Source: Candidatus Yonathbacteria bacterium CG17_big_fil_post_rev_8_21_14_2_50_43_9 (GTDB taxonomy: Bacteria > Patescibacteriota > Minisyncoccia > Phycocordibacterales > UBA1550). Taken from it: 24,657 nucleotides of DNA. The position numbers were made by a program, and so were the translations under genes. The notes beneath the pieces were generated by a model, which did no database searches, had not been told where the DNA came from, and worked only from the letters and a program-made list of their open reading frames with translations. The stretch covers positions 1-24,657 of the forward strand of contig PCUO01000016.1 in assembly GCA_002771015.1 (NCBI GenBank), written 5' to 3'. This document shows positions 2 through 6,839 of the stretch, one piece after another; position 1 is the first letter of the stretch, and every line of letters starts with the position of its first letter.

Positions 2-3000
2 GTAGGACTCAAAGAAGCATTTAAAGAATTCTCCCCTATTGAAGATTACTCAGGGAAAAAGTTTGCATTGGAATTCGTAGGTATTGAACTTTCAGCGCCA
101 AAGTACGACGAGTATTTTGCAAAAGAAAACAATCTCTCATACGAAGCGCCTCTCAAAGCGCGCGTAAAGCTCATAAACAAAACGTTTAAGAGTGAGAAAG
201 AGCAGGAAATCTTTATGGCGGATTTTCCTATGATGACCTCGCACGGTACTTTTATCGTGAACGGGGTTGAACGCGTGGTTGTGCCACAAATCTCGCGCTC
301 CTTTGGCGTGTCATTCACAGTGGATGAGCTCAAGGGCAAGCGTTACTTCGGCGCAAAGATTATTCCTGGACGTGGCGCGTGGGTAGAGGTGGAGTCCGAT
401 CCAGACGGAGCGGTATACGTGCGTATTGATAAAAAGCGCAAGTTCCCTGTGACTGTGCTTCTTCGCGCTCTTGGTTTGGAAAACAACGACGCAATCCTCA
501 AAACATTCGCAAGTAAGGACGAAGCGGTGAAGAAGGTGATTGAAGCAACTCTAGCAAAGGATACTGCTCAGACTCCAGACGAATCATTTATTGAAATTCA
601 CAAGAAGCTTCGTGACGGCGACCTTGCAACAGCAGAAAACGCTCGTGGTTTCGTGAACTCTATTTTCGCAAAGGAAAAATACGACCTCTCAGAAGTTGGA
701 CGTTTCAAGTTCAACAAGCGTTTCGCAAAAGGACTTGATAAAGATGATATTGCAAAACGTACTATTGACGCAAGTGATGTTGCCGTAATCGTTTCTCACA
801 TTGTAAAGCTAAATGCCGACCCTCGTTCTCTTCCAGACGATATTGACCACCTAGGAAGCCGTCGCATTCGCTCTGTGGGTGAAATGCTCCAGCAGAAAAT
901 CCGCGTTGGTATGACACAGATGAAGCGAAACATTCAGGACAGAATGTCTACTATTGATACAGATGCCACAATGCCTGTGCAATTTATCTCTCCTCGCCCG
1001 CTTCAGGCGCGACTAAAAGAATTCTTTTCGACAAACCAGCTTTCTCAGTTTATGAGTCAGTACAACGTTCTTTCTGAGATTGAACTCCTCCGTACTTTCT
1101 CTGCGCTTGGGCCCGGTGGCCTCACACGCGAACGTGCAGGCATTGAAGTTCGCGATGTGCACACATCGCACTACGGACGCCTTTGTCCTATTCACACCCC
1201 AGAAGGTCCGAACATCGGTCTTATTCTTCGTCTTTCTTGCTACGCGCGTATCAATGATTTCGGAATGATTGAAACGCCTTATGTAAAGGTAAGGAACGGC
1301 AAGACAACAAAAGAAATCGTGTACATGGATGCGTTAGAGGAAGAGCAATACAACATTGCGCATGCGTCTTTAAAAATGGATGGCGACAGTATTGTTGAAG
1401 AAAAAGTTGAGGTACGTCGCGCTGGTCATCCAGAGCTTGTGGATCGCAAGGATGTGCACTACATGGACATCGCAGCAAACCAAGCATACTCGGTTGCTAC
1501 ATCTATGATTCCATTTTTGGAACACGACAACGCAAACCGCGCGCTCATGGGTTCAAACATGCAGAAACAGGCAATCCCAGTCGTTGTGCCTGAGGCTCCT
1601 CTAGTTGCAACAGGTATGGAGGGAATGGCCGCTCGCGACACTGGTCGTCTAGTTATTGCGGATGTGGACGGCACTGTCACTCACTCAGATTCAAGGAAGA
1701 TAGTTTTGAAGGGTGGAGATGGAAAGGAGCATTCATACAAGCTTGTAACATTCTCACGAACAAACGGATTTACAGCGTTCCACCAGCGTCCTATAATAAA
1801 CGTTGGTGACAAGGTGAAAAAAGGAGCTGTGCTTGCGGACACTTCGTCTTCAGACAATGGTCAGATCGCTATCGGGCAGAACGCGCTCGTTGCGTTTATG
1901 TCATGGGCAGGTTCAAACTACGAAGACGCTATCATTCTTTCGGAACGTCTCGTGAAGGACAGCAAGTTTACTTCTATTCACATGGATGAGTTTGTTGTAA
2001 ATGTGCGCGACACAAAGCTCGGGCCAGAGGTTACAACTCACGATATTCCAAACGTTGGAGAGCTAAAGCTTAAAGACTTGGACGAGGACGGAATCATTCG
2101 CATCGGAGCAGAGGTGCATCCGGGAGATATTTTGGTTGGAAAGATTACTCCAAAGGGTGAGACTGAACTCACCCCAGAAGAGCGGCTCCTCCGCAGTATT
2201 TTCGGCGATAAGGCTCGCGATGTGAAAGACACCTCGCTTCGCATGGATCACGGCAAGCGTGGTCGTGTTATTGGCGTGAAAATATTCTCGCGCGAAAAGG
2301 GTGACGCTCTAGATAGCGGTATCATCAAGAAAATTCACATTGAAGTTGCGCAGGTGCGTAACATTTCTGTGGGTGACAAACTCGCGGGACGTCACGGGAA
2401 CAAGGGTGTTATATCGGTAATCCTTCCCGAAGAAGATATGCCTTACATGGCAGACGGTACACCTATTGATGTGGTGCTTACCCCACTCGGCGTGCCTTCA
2501 CGTATGAATCTGGGACAAATTCTTGAGCTTCACTTAGGCCTTGCCGCGCACACTCTTGGCTATCAGGCGATAGTGCCTCCGTTTATGGGAGCGACAGTTG
2601 ATGAGATTAAAGGCGAGCTCGTAAAGGCAGGATACCGCGAGGATGGAAAGATGCCACTCTTTGACGGACGCACGGGAGACTCGTTTGATCAGGATATTGC
2701 GGTTGGTTATATGTACATCTTGAAGTTGAACCACATGGTGGAAGACAAAATTCACATGCGTTCAATCGGGCCGTACTCTCTTATTACGCAACAGCCACTT
2801 GGCGGAAAGGCGCAAGGCGGAGGCCAGCGTTTTGGAGAAATGGAAGTGTGGGCACTGGAAGGTTACGGCGCATCGCATGTACTTCGTGAAATGCTCACTA
2901 TTAAATCAGACGATATTTCAGGTCGTTCGGAAGCATTTGACGCTATTGTGAAAGGCAACGACATCACAAGCACAAATATCCCAGAGTCGTTCAATGTGCT

Positions 3001-3055
3001 TCTAAATTATCTACGCGGGCTCTCACTCGACATTTCGCTCAATAAGAAAAAATAA
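2..3055 (+). CDS. rpoB: RNA polymerase beta subunit (5' end outside window)
   Basis: Beta subunit of RNA polymerase; with beta' it forms the active-site cleft. The frame is already open at base 2 and the first residues read as normal RpoB N-terminal sequence (KEFSPIEDYSGKKFALEF), so the true start lies upstream; 1017 residues are visible. Landmarks in order: GTFIVNGVERV in the N-terminal protrusion, the rifampicin pocket (about 1022-1120), the fork region GPGGLTRERAG, HTPEGPNIGLI, the nucleotide-side motif VGDKLAGRHGNKG, LTPLGVPSRMNLGQ, and the C-terminal QPLGGKAQGGGQRFGEMEVW clamp segment. No large lineage insertion is visible. The rifampicin pocket departs from E. coli at several drug-contact positions (see findings). 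The gene is followed by 142 bp of structured spacer and then rpoC. Identification is certain. Confidence 0.98.
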   Translation, partial: VGLKEAFKEFSPIEDYSGKKFALEFVGIELSAPKYDEYFAKENNLSYEAPLKARVKLINKTFKSEKEQEIFMADFPMMTSHGTFIVNGVERVVVPQISRSFGVSFTVDELKGKRYFGAKIIPGRGAWVEVESDPDGAVYVRIDKKRKFPVTVLLRALGLENNDAILKTFASKDEAVKKVIEATLAKDTAQTPDESFIEIHKKLRDGDLATAENARGFVNSIFAKEKYDLSEVGRFKFNKRFAKGLDKDDIAKRTIDASDVAVIVSHIVKLNADPRSLPDDIDHLGSRRIRSVGEMLQQKIRVGMTQMKRNIQDRMSTIDTDATMPVQFISPRPLQARLKEFFSTNQLSQFMSQYNVLSEIELLRTFSALGPGGLTRERAGIEVRDVHTSHYGRLCPIHTPEGPNIGLILRLSCYARINDFGMIETPYVKVRNGKTTKEIVYMDALEEEQYNIAHASLKMDGDSIVEEKVEVRRAGHPELVDRKDVHYMDIAANQAYSVATSMIPFLEHDNANRALMGSNMQKQAIPVVVPEAPLVATGMEGMAARDTGRLVIADVDGTVTHSDSRKIVLKGGDGKEHSYKLVTFSRTNGFTAFHQRPIINVGDKVKKGAVLADTSSSDNGQIAIGQNALVAFMSWAGSNYEDAIILSERLVKDSKFTSIHMDEFVVNVRDTKLGPEVTTHDIPNVGELKLKDLDEDGIIRIGAEVHPGDILVGKITPKGETELTPEERLLRSIFGDKARDVKDTSLRMDHGKRGRVIGVKIFSREKGDALDSGIIKKIHIEVAQVRNISVGDKLAGRHGNKGVISVILPEEDMPYMADGTPIDVVLTPLGVPSRMNLGQILELHLGLAAHTLGYQAIVPPFMGATVDEIKGELVKAGYREDGKMPLFDGRTGDSFDQDIAVGYMYILKLNHMVEDKIHMRSIGPYSLITQQPLGGKAQGGGQRFGEMEVWALEGYGASHVLREMLTIKSDDISGRSEAFDAIVKGNDITSTNIPESFNVLLNYLRGLSLDISLNKKK

Positions 3056-3073
3056 ATAAGATAACGAGCGAGG

Positions 3074-3175
3074 CGACATCAGATTATTTACCCAGTTAAA
3101 TAATTTAAAATTTATACAAATTTTAAATTGCGATTTGAAAAATCGCATTTAACCGGGTGGTGATTTTGATAGTCG
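3074..3175 (+). other. Three-way-junction inverted repeat in the rpoB-rpoC spacer
   Basis: The spacer folds on paper into a closed three-way junction. The outer stem pairs 3090-3101 with 3147-3158 (12 positions, one A-C mismatch). Inside are two perfect hairpins: 3102-3113 with 3118-3129 (12 bp, loop ATAC) and 3130-3136 with 3140-3146 (7 bp, loop GAA). The helices abut with no unpaired base at the junction. Outside, 3074-3077 can pair with 3172-3175, joined to the core by an interrupted helix. No T-tract follows, so it is not a standard terminator. It could be an mRNA processing or attenuation element, or an inserted palindromic element; the sequence does not decide. Confidence 0.7.
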
Positions 3176-3197
3176 TTTCACTCTTTAAAAATCAACC

Positions 3198-6100
3198 ATG
3201 AAAACACTACGCGAATTACAGAATTTCGACGAAATCGTTCTCAAGCTTGCATCTCCTGAGCGTATTAAGGAGTGGTCATACGGCGAGGTTACCAAACCGG
3301 AGACTATCAACTACCGCACACAAAGAAGCGAGCGCGGAGGTCTCTTTGACGAGCGAATCTTCGGGCCTGAAAAGGATTACGAATGTTACTGCGGAAAGTA
3401 CAAGCGCATTCGTTACAAGAATATTATTTGTGAGAAATGTGGAGTTGAGGTTACTCGCTCTATAGTTCGTCGCGAGCGAATGGGGCATATTGAGCTTGCT
3501 TCACCTGTTGCGCACATTTGGTTCCTTCGTTCCATCCCTTCACGCATGGGTCTTCTTCTAAATCTTCCTATCGTGGATCTTGAGAAAGTTATTTACTTTG
3601 CAGGGTACATCATCACTTCTGTAAACATCACAGAGAGAGACAATTTCTTGAAGGAGCTTGATCAGGAATACAAAAACAAATCAAAGACACTTATCGACGA
3701 AAAAGGAAAGGAAAAGCTTAAGGAGCTTCTTTTGACAGCAAAAAAAGAAATTGAGTCACTTGTTGAGGGTAAGGTGCTTGATGAGATGACATATCACAAG
3801 TTTGCGCTCAAGTACAGCACAGCATTTGAAGCAGGTATTGGCGCAGAGGCGATTTACAACATCTTCAAAAAGATTGACCTCGTTAAATTCCGCGAGAAGC
3901 TTCAGTGTGAGCTAGAAAAGGCAGGCGCAGTTGAACGCGCGAAACTTCACAAGCGTCTAGGAATTGTGAAATCACTTATCAACTCAGGCGTCCGTCCAGA
4001 GTGGATGTTCATTAAAGTTATTCCTATTATTCCACCAGCGCTTCGTCCAATGGTTGCCCTTGAGGGTGGACGCCATGCTACTTCGGACCTGAACGACTTG
4101 TATCGTCGCGTTATCAACCGCAACAATCGCTTGAAGAAACTCATTGCTATTGGCGCGCCTGATGTTATTCTACGCAACGAAAAGCGTATTCTTCAGGAAG
4201 CTGTGGATTCGCTTATTGATAACTCAATTCGCCGTGTCCAATCTGTGGCAATGAATGCTGCTCAAAAGCGAACTTTGAAGTCACTCGCTGATACTCTCAA
4301 AGGCAAGCAAGGACTCTTTCGTCAGAACCTCCTCGGAAAGCGTGTGGATTATTCTGGTCGTTCGGTTATTGTTGTTGGGCCAAAACTTCATCTAGATCAG
4401 TGCGGTTTGCCAAAGCACATGGCTCTTGAACTTTTCCGTCCGTTTATCGTTTCAAAAATTATTGAGCGTGAGCTAGCGTACAATATTCGCGGAGCAAACA
4501 AGCTCATAGACGACAGCGTTGCTGAGGTGTGGGCAATTTTGGAAGAAGTGATCAAAGGCAAGTATGTTCTTTTGAACCGTGCTCCAACTCTTCACCGTCT
4601 TGGTATTCAGGCTTTCCACCCTGTACTAATCGAAGGCAACGCTATCCAGGTTCATCCACTAGTTTGCGCCGCATTCAACGCGGACTTCGACGGAGACCAA
4701 ATGGCGGTGCACGTGCCACTTTCGCACGCTGCGCAAAAGGAAGCTGGCGAGCTTATGGCCGCAAACAAGAACCTTCTCGGGCCAGGGAACGGCGATCCAA
4801 TTGTAAAACCAAAACTTGATATTCCTCTTGGTTGTTATTCAATGACAAAGATTATTGAAGGAGCAAAGGGTGAAGGAAAGATTTTTCCTACGCCAAACAG
4901 CGCTATTACAGCACACGACTTTGATGCGGTGAGCTATCGCGCAAAGATAAAGGTGATGGGCACCGACTCTCAAAAATACGCCATTTTCCGCGGTCAGGTT
5001 TTTGAGACTACGGTTGGTCGTCTACTTTTTAACAGCGTGCTTCCTTCAGACTTCGCATATGTGAACAAGGAGATCACACAAAAGGAGCTTGAGTCTATTA
5101 TTGATGAACTCATCAATACTTACGGCATCGACGCGACCCCTCCGATTTTGGACAAAATCAAGGACTTTGGTTTCAAGTATGTAACCAAAGCTGGTATTAC
5201 GTGGGGGATTGATGAGATCAAGATTCCTGCCGAGAAAAAAGGCATTATTGCAAAAGCAAAAATTAAGGCAGACGAAATTCGTTCAGAATTTAATGCTGGG
5301 CTTCTTTCCGAGGATGAGCGTTATCGTCGCACCATTGAGTGTTGGCAGGGAGCTCGTGGCGAGATTGAGAAATTTATGCCAGCAACTCTAGACAAAAATG
5401 GTTCTGTGGAGGACATGTTGAAGTCAGGAGCGCGCGGTTCTATTGCTCAGATTCTCCAGATGGGAGGTATGATGGGGCTCATTATCAACACAGCAGGACG
5501 CACTATTGACTTCCCGATTATTCCATCAAGCAAGGAAGGTTTGTCACCAGTGGAATACTTCATTACGACTCACGGTTCACGTAAAGGTCTCGCCGACACA
5601 GCGCTTCAGACTGCAAAGGCAGGATACCTTACTCGTCGTATTGTTGATGTAGCGCAGGACGCCATCATCACCGAAGAAGACTGTGGAGACAAAGAAGGCA
5701 AGACTATCCGCAAGGAAAACCTTGTTGGATTTGACATCCTTCTTTCACGCAATCTAAAAGGTCGTGTGCTTGCGAAGGATATTGCGCTCGCAGACGGTAC
5801 GGTGATTTACAAAAAGGGTCATCTTATGTCAAAAGCAGATGTAAAGGATTCGGAGGCTCGTGGCATTACCGAAGCAATTGTACGCTCTCCTCTTTCGTGT
5901 AAGACTTCGCACGGCATTTGTCGCATGTGTTATGGTTTGGACATCGGTAGAAATGAACTTGTAGAGATTGGCGAGGCGGTGGGTATTATAGCTGCTCAAG
6001 CTATAGGCGAACCAGGTACACAGCTTACTATGCGTACTTTCCACTCTGGAGGTATTGCATCGGCAGGTGGTGACATTACTATGGGTCTTCCACGTGTTGA

Positions 6101-6839
6101 AGAAATATTTGAAAAGCGTGAGCCAAAGAGTCTCGCAATTATCTCTCACACAAACGGCGTGATTACTGAAGTAATTCGTGACGAAAAGGAGTTAATTATC
6201 AAGGTACTCCCTGCTGAGGGGGAAGGAAAGAAGAAGGGTGAAGCAATAGAGTACGAAACATCAGCAAAGCGTACTCCGTTTGTAAAGGTGGGCAGTGCTG
6301 TGTCAAAAGGACAACTTTTGTCAGACGGTTCAGCCGACATAGCAGAGGTGTTCCAATACGCAGGAAAGGATGTAGCAGAAAACTACATTATTACTGAAGT
6401 CCTCAAGATTTATGAACTTCAGGGCGCGTCAATCTCACGCAAGCACATTGAGGTGATTATTCGCCAAATGTTCTCGCGAAGAAAGATTAAAGATTCTGGA
6501 GATACAATCTTCAATCTTGGTGATGTGGTTGAACAGGGAGAACTCGCTCATGAAAACGAGCGAATAGAGAAGATGGGTGGAGAAAAGGCAAAGGGAGAAA
6601 TAGTGGTACTTGGTATTTCCGTTGTCGCCCTTACTACAAAGAGCTGGATGTCAGCTGCGTCATTTGAGAATACAACTCGCGTTCTTATTGATACTGCAAT
6701 CCAGGGCGGTGTGGACACTCTTCGTGGACTGAAAGAGAATGTTATCATTGGTCACCTTATCCCAGCAGGAACAGGGTTTGGTAAAAATGGTGGCGTGAAT
6801 GAGCTTCCCGGAGAAGTAGCAGAGGAATTATCCGCGTAG
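3198..6839 (+). CDS. rpoC: RNA polymerase beta' subunit
   Basis: Beta' subunit, which carries the catalytic magnesium site. The N-terminal zinc ribbon uses C63, C65, C78 and C81. The catalytic loop NADFDGD is at 494-500, with the three Mg-binding aspartates at 496, 498 and 500. The second zinc site is C829, C901, C908 and C911. The bridge helix ([20 protein letters not shown]) starts near residue 789, and the trigger-loop motif [11 protein letters not shown] is present. At 1213 residues it is of the compact type, without the large trigger-loop insertion of proteobacterial RpoC. The ATG at 3198 gives the expected start ([20 protein letters not shown]) but has no clear Shine-Dalgarno. The stop codon lies in the loop of a 13-bp hairpin. 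Identification is certain. Confidence 0.99.

Follow-up and report, generated by a model that had tools for sequence, protein, structure and literature searches.

A dispersed hairpin element at stop-to-start gaps in Patescibacteria, first seen in the rpoB-rpoC spacer of a Yonathbacteria genome

Results

The rpoB-rpoC spacer contains a three-part hairpin element

The window analysed is a stretch of 24,657 nucleotides, positions 1 to 24,657 of contig PCUO01000016.1 of Candidatus Yonathbacteria bacterium (genome G000). It opens within rpoB, a name taken from the initial annotation and from the position before rpoC, and the spacer between the two genes folds into a branched structure. The segments 3090-3101, 3102-3129, 3130-3146 and 3147-3158 pair exactly as the initial annotation described, and the RNA fold confirms its claim of a three-way junction without any unpaired base. 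In the outer stem 11 of 12 pairs form, and A3094 stands opposite C3154 as an A·C mismatch. The fold is far better than expected by chance: positions 3074-3175 reach -33.5 kcal/mol, compared with -13.4 +/- 2.7 kcal/mol for shuffled sequence (z -7.55; RNA fold), a value equalled by none of 200 dinucleotide shuffles.

These coordinates cut the element, whose true span is about 3053-3197: it starts with the rpoB stop codon (3053-3055) and ends immediately ahead of the rpoC ATG (3198). In full it consists of a left (L) hairpin that includes the rpoB stop codon, the centre reported at the outset, and a right (R) hairpin ending 4 nt from the rpoC start. The features, all on the plus strand, are as follows.

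2..3055, +, 3' part of rpoB, cut by the window start, with stop codon TAA at 3053-3055 (open reading frame list, parsing of the spacer)
3053..3062, +, outer arm of the L hairpin, holding the rpoB stop codon, with pairing of 3053-3059 to 3084-3090 (sequence, fold of 3053-3090)
3063..3079, +, L core, supported by nested covarying columns when every column pair was scanned in 112 copies; the family consensus is AAX-GAGCGNAGCGA-X', in this copy GAGCGAGGCGA at 3066-3076
3080..3089, +, inner arm of the L hairpin (arm matching tested across the family by permutation and by swapping)
3090..3101, +, 5' arm of the central stem (sequence, fold)
3102..3129, +, central hairpin 1, 12 bp, loop ATAC (fold); in long copies elsewhere this loop is larger and may contain an extended -10-like motif
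3130..3146, +, central hairpin 2, 7 bp, triloop GAA (fold)
3147..3158, +, 3' arm of the central stem (sequence, fold)
3159..3172, +, inner arm of the R hairpin (fold of 3159-3197, family-level tests); GATTTT at 3162-3167 pairs with AAAATC at 3188-3193
3173..3183, +, R core TCGTTTCACTC, corresponding to the L core in inverted orientation (column-pair covariation scan)
3184..3197, +, outer arm of the R hairpin plus the bases leading up to the start codon, TTTAAAAATCAACC, common to element copies
3198..6839, +, rpoC (TIGR02386, E 1.4e-76 with the first 220 aa, a score under the full-length cut-off owing to the truncated query)

An Rfam search of the window gave no match above the gathering score, and a tRNA search of the window was likewise negative. 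The lowest-energy RNA fold of the rpoB-rpoC copy is one long L-R helix at -45.8 kcal/mol, whereas separate folds of L, centre and R sum to -28.1 kcal/mol. Energy thus favours the long helix in this copy, whereas covariation, described below, favours separate hairpins.

Copies occur throughout the genome, the genus and the order

A DNA search with the spacer returned 35 matching pieces in G000 at E <= 10. A covariance model was then built from nine own-genome copies. At E <= 0.1 it gave 30 rows in G000, sorted manually into 22 distinct places and 8 opposite-strand duplicates; the weakest of the 22 are doubtful, and the number is a lower bound because 150 of 274 first-look candidates were scored. 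The exact core GAGCGNAGCGA is present at 14 places in G000, compared with 4 for a reversed control pattern, and seven of the 14 fall inside element copies by coordinates.

Matches were found in 10 of 16 genomes of the genus (E <= 0.01) and in 65 of 297 genomes and 48 of 165 genera of the order (E <= 0.001, with at most 11 candidates scored per genome). The nearest named relatives by RpoC are Nomurabacteria, Vogelbacteria and Taylorbacteria at 63-64% identity, a comparison from which very near records may be missing. The analyses below use 172 copies: 22 from G000, 62 from nine other genomes of the genus and 88 hand-picked from among the order matches listed. The rpoB-rpoC spacer is one copy of a dispersed repeated element, not an rpoB-rpoC device. 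No description of such an element appeared among the open-licence papers that literature searches listed.

Close relatives differ in which sites carry the element

In the nearest relative, G013, whose RpoC is 98% identical, a single base separates the rpoB stop from the rpoC ATG. The same spacer measures 11-67 nt in nine other genomes of the genus and is filled in G000 and G002, so that the element is present in 2 of the 12 genus genomes in which the junction is visible; of the 16 genomes, two are cut at a contig end near rpoB-rpoC and two lack an RpoC match. Among the roles first considered, an inserted palindromic element agrees with the 22 places in G000 and the 1-nt spacer in G013. A dedicated device balancing rpoB and rpoC does not fit an element found there in 2 of 12 genomes whose other own-genome copies precede other genes. 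Absence from all relatives, or a lack of compensatory change, had been named as grounds for discounting the fold; the element is indeed absent at 10 of the 12 junctions, but compensation is evident, with matched changes clear in L and R.

Filled and empty states also differ within the S10 operon, at rpsJ, rplC, rpsS, rplV and rplN (up to 11 genomes per junction), although the automatic stop caller misplaced the upstream stop at some filled sites; many native spacers are short. At rpsQ-rplN in G000 the element replaces the native last codons and spacer present in G013, and the upstream frame now terminates within the element. Empty sites were thus found, and at rpsQ-rplN native sequence was replaced rather than duplicated.

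Matched changes in the L and R hairpins are seen both across copies and between orthologous copies. The rpsJ copies differ by one matched substitution (GTAAGTAA/TTACTTAC versus GTAAGGAA/TTCCTTAC), the rplC copies by a stop-codon change matched in both arms (GTAGT/ACTAC versus GTAAC/GTTAC), and the rplN copies by a one-base insertion matched in both arms (AGTTATTC/GAATAACT versus GTTATTTC/GAAATAAC).

Several neighbouring sites carry partial or different structures. The tuf-rpsJ junction of G003 (L280) has no element, yet TTAAAAATCAACC abuts the rpsJ ATG, as if a deletion had spared the right end. In G009 and G010 (L283, L284) the same junction holds a different, structured-looking spacer of 128-129 nt, which in G009 ends in a similar A-rich sequence before the ATG and may represent another stop-to-start element family. 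Upstream of rpsS in G005 (L282), a centre-like ACCCAGCCCC..GGGCTGGGT stem stands without recognisable L and R hairpins. Near-identical extra strings, CCGAGCGAGCGCAGGATATATAGTAATCTATATA, lie before frr in G000 (L048, contig C41) and before a gene that by eye is SecE-like in G013 (L139, contig C8), and are possibly a partial element subtype.

The element spans the gap from an upstream stop to a downstream start

An ATG reading frame begins within 45 nt of the element 3' end in 163 of the 172 copies, and exactly at the model end in 127. The nine copies without one include three with a short frame under the 40-aa cut-off (G000:C6, G003:C18, G014:C5) and one that was collected from the wrong strand (G002:C38:24230). 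A same-strand upstream frame of at least 60 codons ends between -150 and +25 in 142 of the 172 copies. Position of the stop codon relative to the L stem was scored in the 106 copies that have such an upstream stop and two recognisable cores. Pairing takes in the whole stop codon in 48 of them, two of its bases in 12, a single base in 2 and no base in 5; the stop lies farther off in 34 and in the core or inner arm in 5, a count that has no shuffle control.

Across 83 own-genome frames not marked as element-bearing, taken from the fetched stretches and including some spurious ones, no common sequence precedes the ATG. Two of the 83 have an element-like end before the ATG: rplK, 79 nt below the copy on contig C12, and an S4-like frame (L043) on the minus strand of G000:C11:55000-61000, where none of the listed model matches lies. 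These two right ends are perhaps missed copies or remnants.

With up to the first 220 aa scanned, 15 of 20 own-genome downstream proteins were matched, several under full-length cut-offs: rpoC, rplN, GAPDH, rpsS, rpsJ, ndk, rplV, GspF/PilC, murG, murF, rnc, rplM, frr, PBP2 and nusA. Four gave no match and one a weak match. Among 86 downstream proteins from other genera, the commonest families, considering the best 25 of 442, are NusA (8), L24 (4) and PilB (4), followed by GroEL, L3, GspF/PilC, L20 and type Z S14 (3 each), and a copy in G104, from another family, precedes a protein that resembles RpoC by eye. Housekeeping genes may be enriched downstream, an impression from the element-bearing genes scanned.

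Each hairpin has a compact core and copy-specific arms

In 112 non-redundant copies, a scan of all column pairs placed (-3,16), (0,12), (-1,13), (3,9) and (4,8) at the top in L, and (0,12), (4,8), (3,9) and (-1,13) at the top in R. The pairing observed at these columns was reached by at most 1 in 2000 shuffles, and weaker non-nested pairs rank below. Each core therefore reads X-GA-GC-GNA-GC-GA-X', directly in L and in inverted orientation in R. According to PMC4686876, a GNA loop on two G-C pairs makes a very stable DNA mini-hairpin.

The cores of L and R do not covary with each other (9.175 pairs versus 9.146 in shuffles), and a cross scan of their columns was also negative. A column-wise pair count over the nine own-genome copies, covering the long outer helix and the central stem, gave 82.9% of cells paired versus 82.0% (97/500 shuffles). 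The long-range L-R helix was therefore rejected as a conserved fold, given that the cores do not covary and the nine-copy count does not exceed shuffles.

The arms follow the individual copy. In 80 non-redundant copies, the stem score with own partners is 17.6 for L, compared with 12.9 +/- 0.32 for shuffled partners, and 17.0 for R, compared with 14.05 +/- 0.26; these permutation figures overstate independence because copies are related. Ten clusters of copies have centres at least 93% identical to each other, which permitted arms to be swapped between near-identical centres. Nine clusters were used (five groups within one genome and four across genomes), after setting aside the cluster of rnc orthologs and a single member of a different cluster. 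Stems scored 19.2 with own arms (n=21), compared with 14.9 when arms were swapped (n=30). Exceptions were a G013 group in the opposite direction, an equivocal G189 group, and two of three G061 copies with the same arms. Compared across the family, the left inner arm of a copy fits that copy's flank. In several copies the flank matched by the L arm is the end of the upstream coding sequence; in the murF copy of G000, CCGGATAGGTAA, comprising the upstream coding end and stop, pairs with TTACCTATCCGG, and the G004 ortholog retains the same C-terminal residues.

Centres are exchangeable and their pairing points to DNA copying

By RNA minimum free energy, the centres of the 172 copies form 114 three-way junctions, 43 single hairpins and 7 more-branched folds, with 8 lacking a centre stem by the rule used; in 73 of the three-way junctions no junction base is unpaired. 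The count of 114 is generous because long loops also branch by chance, while the 73 are clean. Closed-junction copies often have quite different hairpin sequences. At tuf-rpsJ two orthologous copies carry different centres, and centres recur at unrelated loci, showing that the centre is exchangeable.

Isolated mismatches in the L stem comprise 8 G·T and 15 A·C, and in the R stem 7 of each, all under the numbers for shuffled partners; mismatches of neither type form the majority (66 in L, 76 in R). Among 101 short centres, G·U contributes 2.5% of pairs, compared with 12.7% in folded mononucleotide shuffles, and triloops are the commonest hairpin loops (91 of 173), whereas tetraloops are commonest in shuffles. 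Pairing without G·U preference points to DNA copying by template switching rather than to RNA selection alone. Template switching is a described route to creating and maintaining such stems (PMC8794818).

Deviations from the core, 32:17 in L and 11:37 in R, suggested that the L hairpin forms on the plus strand and the R hairpin on the minus strand; non-core positions show the opposite bias (26:67 and 40:22), and because of this conflict the strand inference was dropped.

In the 38 centres of at least 100 nt, TGNTANNAT occurs in 13, compared with 6.7% of mononucleotide shuffles, and a looser promoter pattern, without its own control, in 15. As the copies are related, these matches are suggestive only of a possible internal promoter in long centres.

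Discussion

Relation to known repeats and leaders

REPINs have been proposed to be mobilised by RAYT transposases, and the REPIN/RAYT system has conserved palindrome arms and a 5' tag tetranucleotide. The present element resembles a REPIN in being short, dispersed and extragenic, with two inverted hairpin-forming cores and a spacer (PMC3116915): its L and R cores correspond to each other in inverted orientation, and nested pairs covary within each. It differs in that its stems vary with the flank instead of being conserved, in that a start codon lies on the same side in 163 of 172 copies, whereas REP doublets are called randomly distributed in extragenic space (PMC3116915), and in that no link to a cognate RAYT (Y1 transposase) gene was found in the stretches and genomes examined. 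The core motif (at least 10 of 11 positions) was absent from 2.3-2.5 kb stretches around the five Y1 genes examined, including 2.5 kb around the single Y1 transposase gene in G000, and G003, from which nine element places were used, has no PF01797 (Y1) match. An association with RAYT is supported neither by the search around Y1 genes nor by G003.

BOX, ERIC and Correia elements are intergenic repeats built of hairpin modules, and some of them carry promoters. The present element is likewise modular and intergenic, but is distinguished from them by its stop-to-start placement, its flank-matched arms and its spread across an order of Patescibacteria. Like ribosomal protein leaders, it is a structured sequence before ribosomal protein genes; unlike them, it also precedes unrelated genes (GAPDH, murG, murF, ndk, GspF/PilC, rnc, GroEL, NusA), and the window has no Rfam match. 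The main text of a ribosomal leader survey (PMC7247131) contains no mention of Patescibacteria, Parcubacteria or candidate phyla. With template-switch (quasipalindrome) hairpins it shares stems and multibase compensation, which in those hairpins are created by copying (PMC8794818), but it is repeated, with a conserved fold-back core at many loci. Integron attC was considered on account of a GTTAAAT repeat. It was set aside since attC core sites have the orientation opposite to this repeat, and other centres lack it.

Proposed origin and function

Copies are repeated in the genome and across the order, stop-to-start and in sense orientation, and close relatives differ in which sites are filled. 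We consider it probable that the element is a non-autonomous mobile DNA element whose stems arise by template switching and whose copies are kept sense-oriented as putative leaders, often of housekeeping genes. In this scheme the element would spread as DNA through a putative mobilising activity, and template switching would make the stems and keep them near-perfect, with the compact GC-GNA-GC core serving as the fold-back turn beyond which the inner arm is synthesised as a copy of the outer arm. Copies would be retained only where the right end makes a workable start region, from which we infer a role as mRNA leader: in the transcript the element would cover the upstream stop codon, end at the next start codon, and might modulate coupling, processing or stability between the two cistrons.

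A more elaborate version, which we advance only tentatively, is a self-templating mobile element in which the folded-back core would prime the copying of host flank and so customise the leader for each gene. A DNA-type GC-GNA-GC mini-hairpin would form at each end, on the strand that runs from outer arm through core to inner arm. The fold-back, on landing or during a later round of replication, would build the terminal stems from host sequence, and the copied flank could take in the final codons and the stop of the neighbouring gene.

Regulation in the small, uncultured Patescibacteria is commonly regarded as stripped-down. For these bacteria, an element spread over an order and filling the gaps between stop and start codons, in many cases ahead of core genes, would add a layer of gene organisation that has not been described, and its flank-matched copies make it testable what share of apparent RNA covariation is due to DNA template switching and what share to RNA selection.

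Alternative explanations

That the element acts purely at the RNA level, as an intercistronic leader selected for its mRNA fold, appears unlikely. A ribosome reaching the end of the upstream gene would open the L hairpin, and the L core would then pair with the R core, freeing the downstream start. Sense orientation and ATG spacing, the stop codon frequently inside the L stem, and the many ribosomal, transcription and other housekeeping genes downstream all agree with such a regulator, and an RNA role keeps some plausibility because the minimum-energy RNA fold of the rpoB-rpoC copy is one long L-R helix. The missing covariation between L and R cores speaks against the proposed switch, as does the lack of G·U preference in the stems; moreover, centres differ between orthologous copies at tuf-rpsJ and are shared by unrelated loci, and the targets are many and unrelated. 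At the opposite extreme, a functionless selfish repeat, REPIN- or MITE-like, might sit at stop-start junctions only because these are the main gaps in a compact genome, an account to which we give rather little credence. It would explain inverted hairpin cores, dispersal and the coexistence of filled and empty sites, and many native spacers are short. Random insertion between co-directional genes, on the other hand, predicts both orientations and a variable distance to the ATG, whereas the adjacent start is on the same side in 163 of 172 copies, an argument weakened because the search model was built from mostly ATG-abutting copies and includes those three columns.

An antitermination (nut/boxA-like) element seems very improbable. 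The R end, CGCTC-NTTAAAAATC, resembles lambda nutL boxA, and nusA, rpsJ and rpoC are among the targets. Against this, the CGCTC part is accounted for by the inverted repeat, the boxA-like string is missing from several R subtypes, and three of four 16S leaders of the genus read by eye (G000, G005 and G014, not G002) have CYTTGACAAYTACAT instead, the G000 leader showing CCTTGACAATTACAT. On these 16S leaders, boxA identity was judged unlikely. The 16S match in G000 itself (L193, G000:C40:1569-3251) spans 1683 bases compared with a 1533-position model, suggesting a possible insertion in this rRNA gene.
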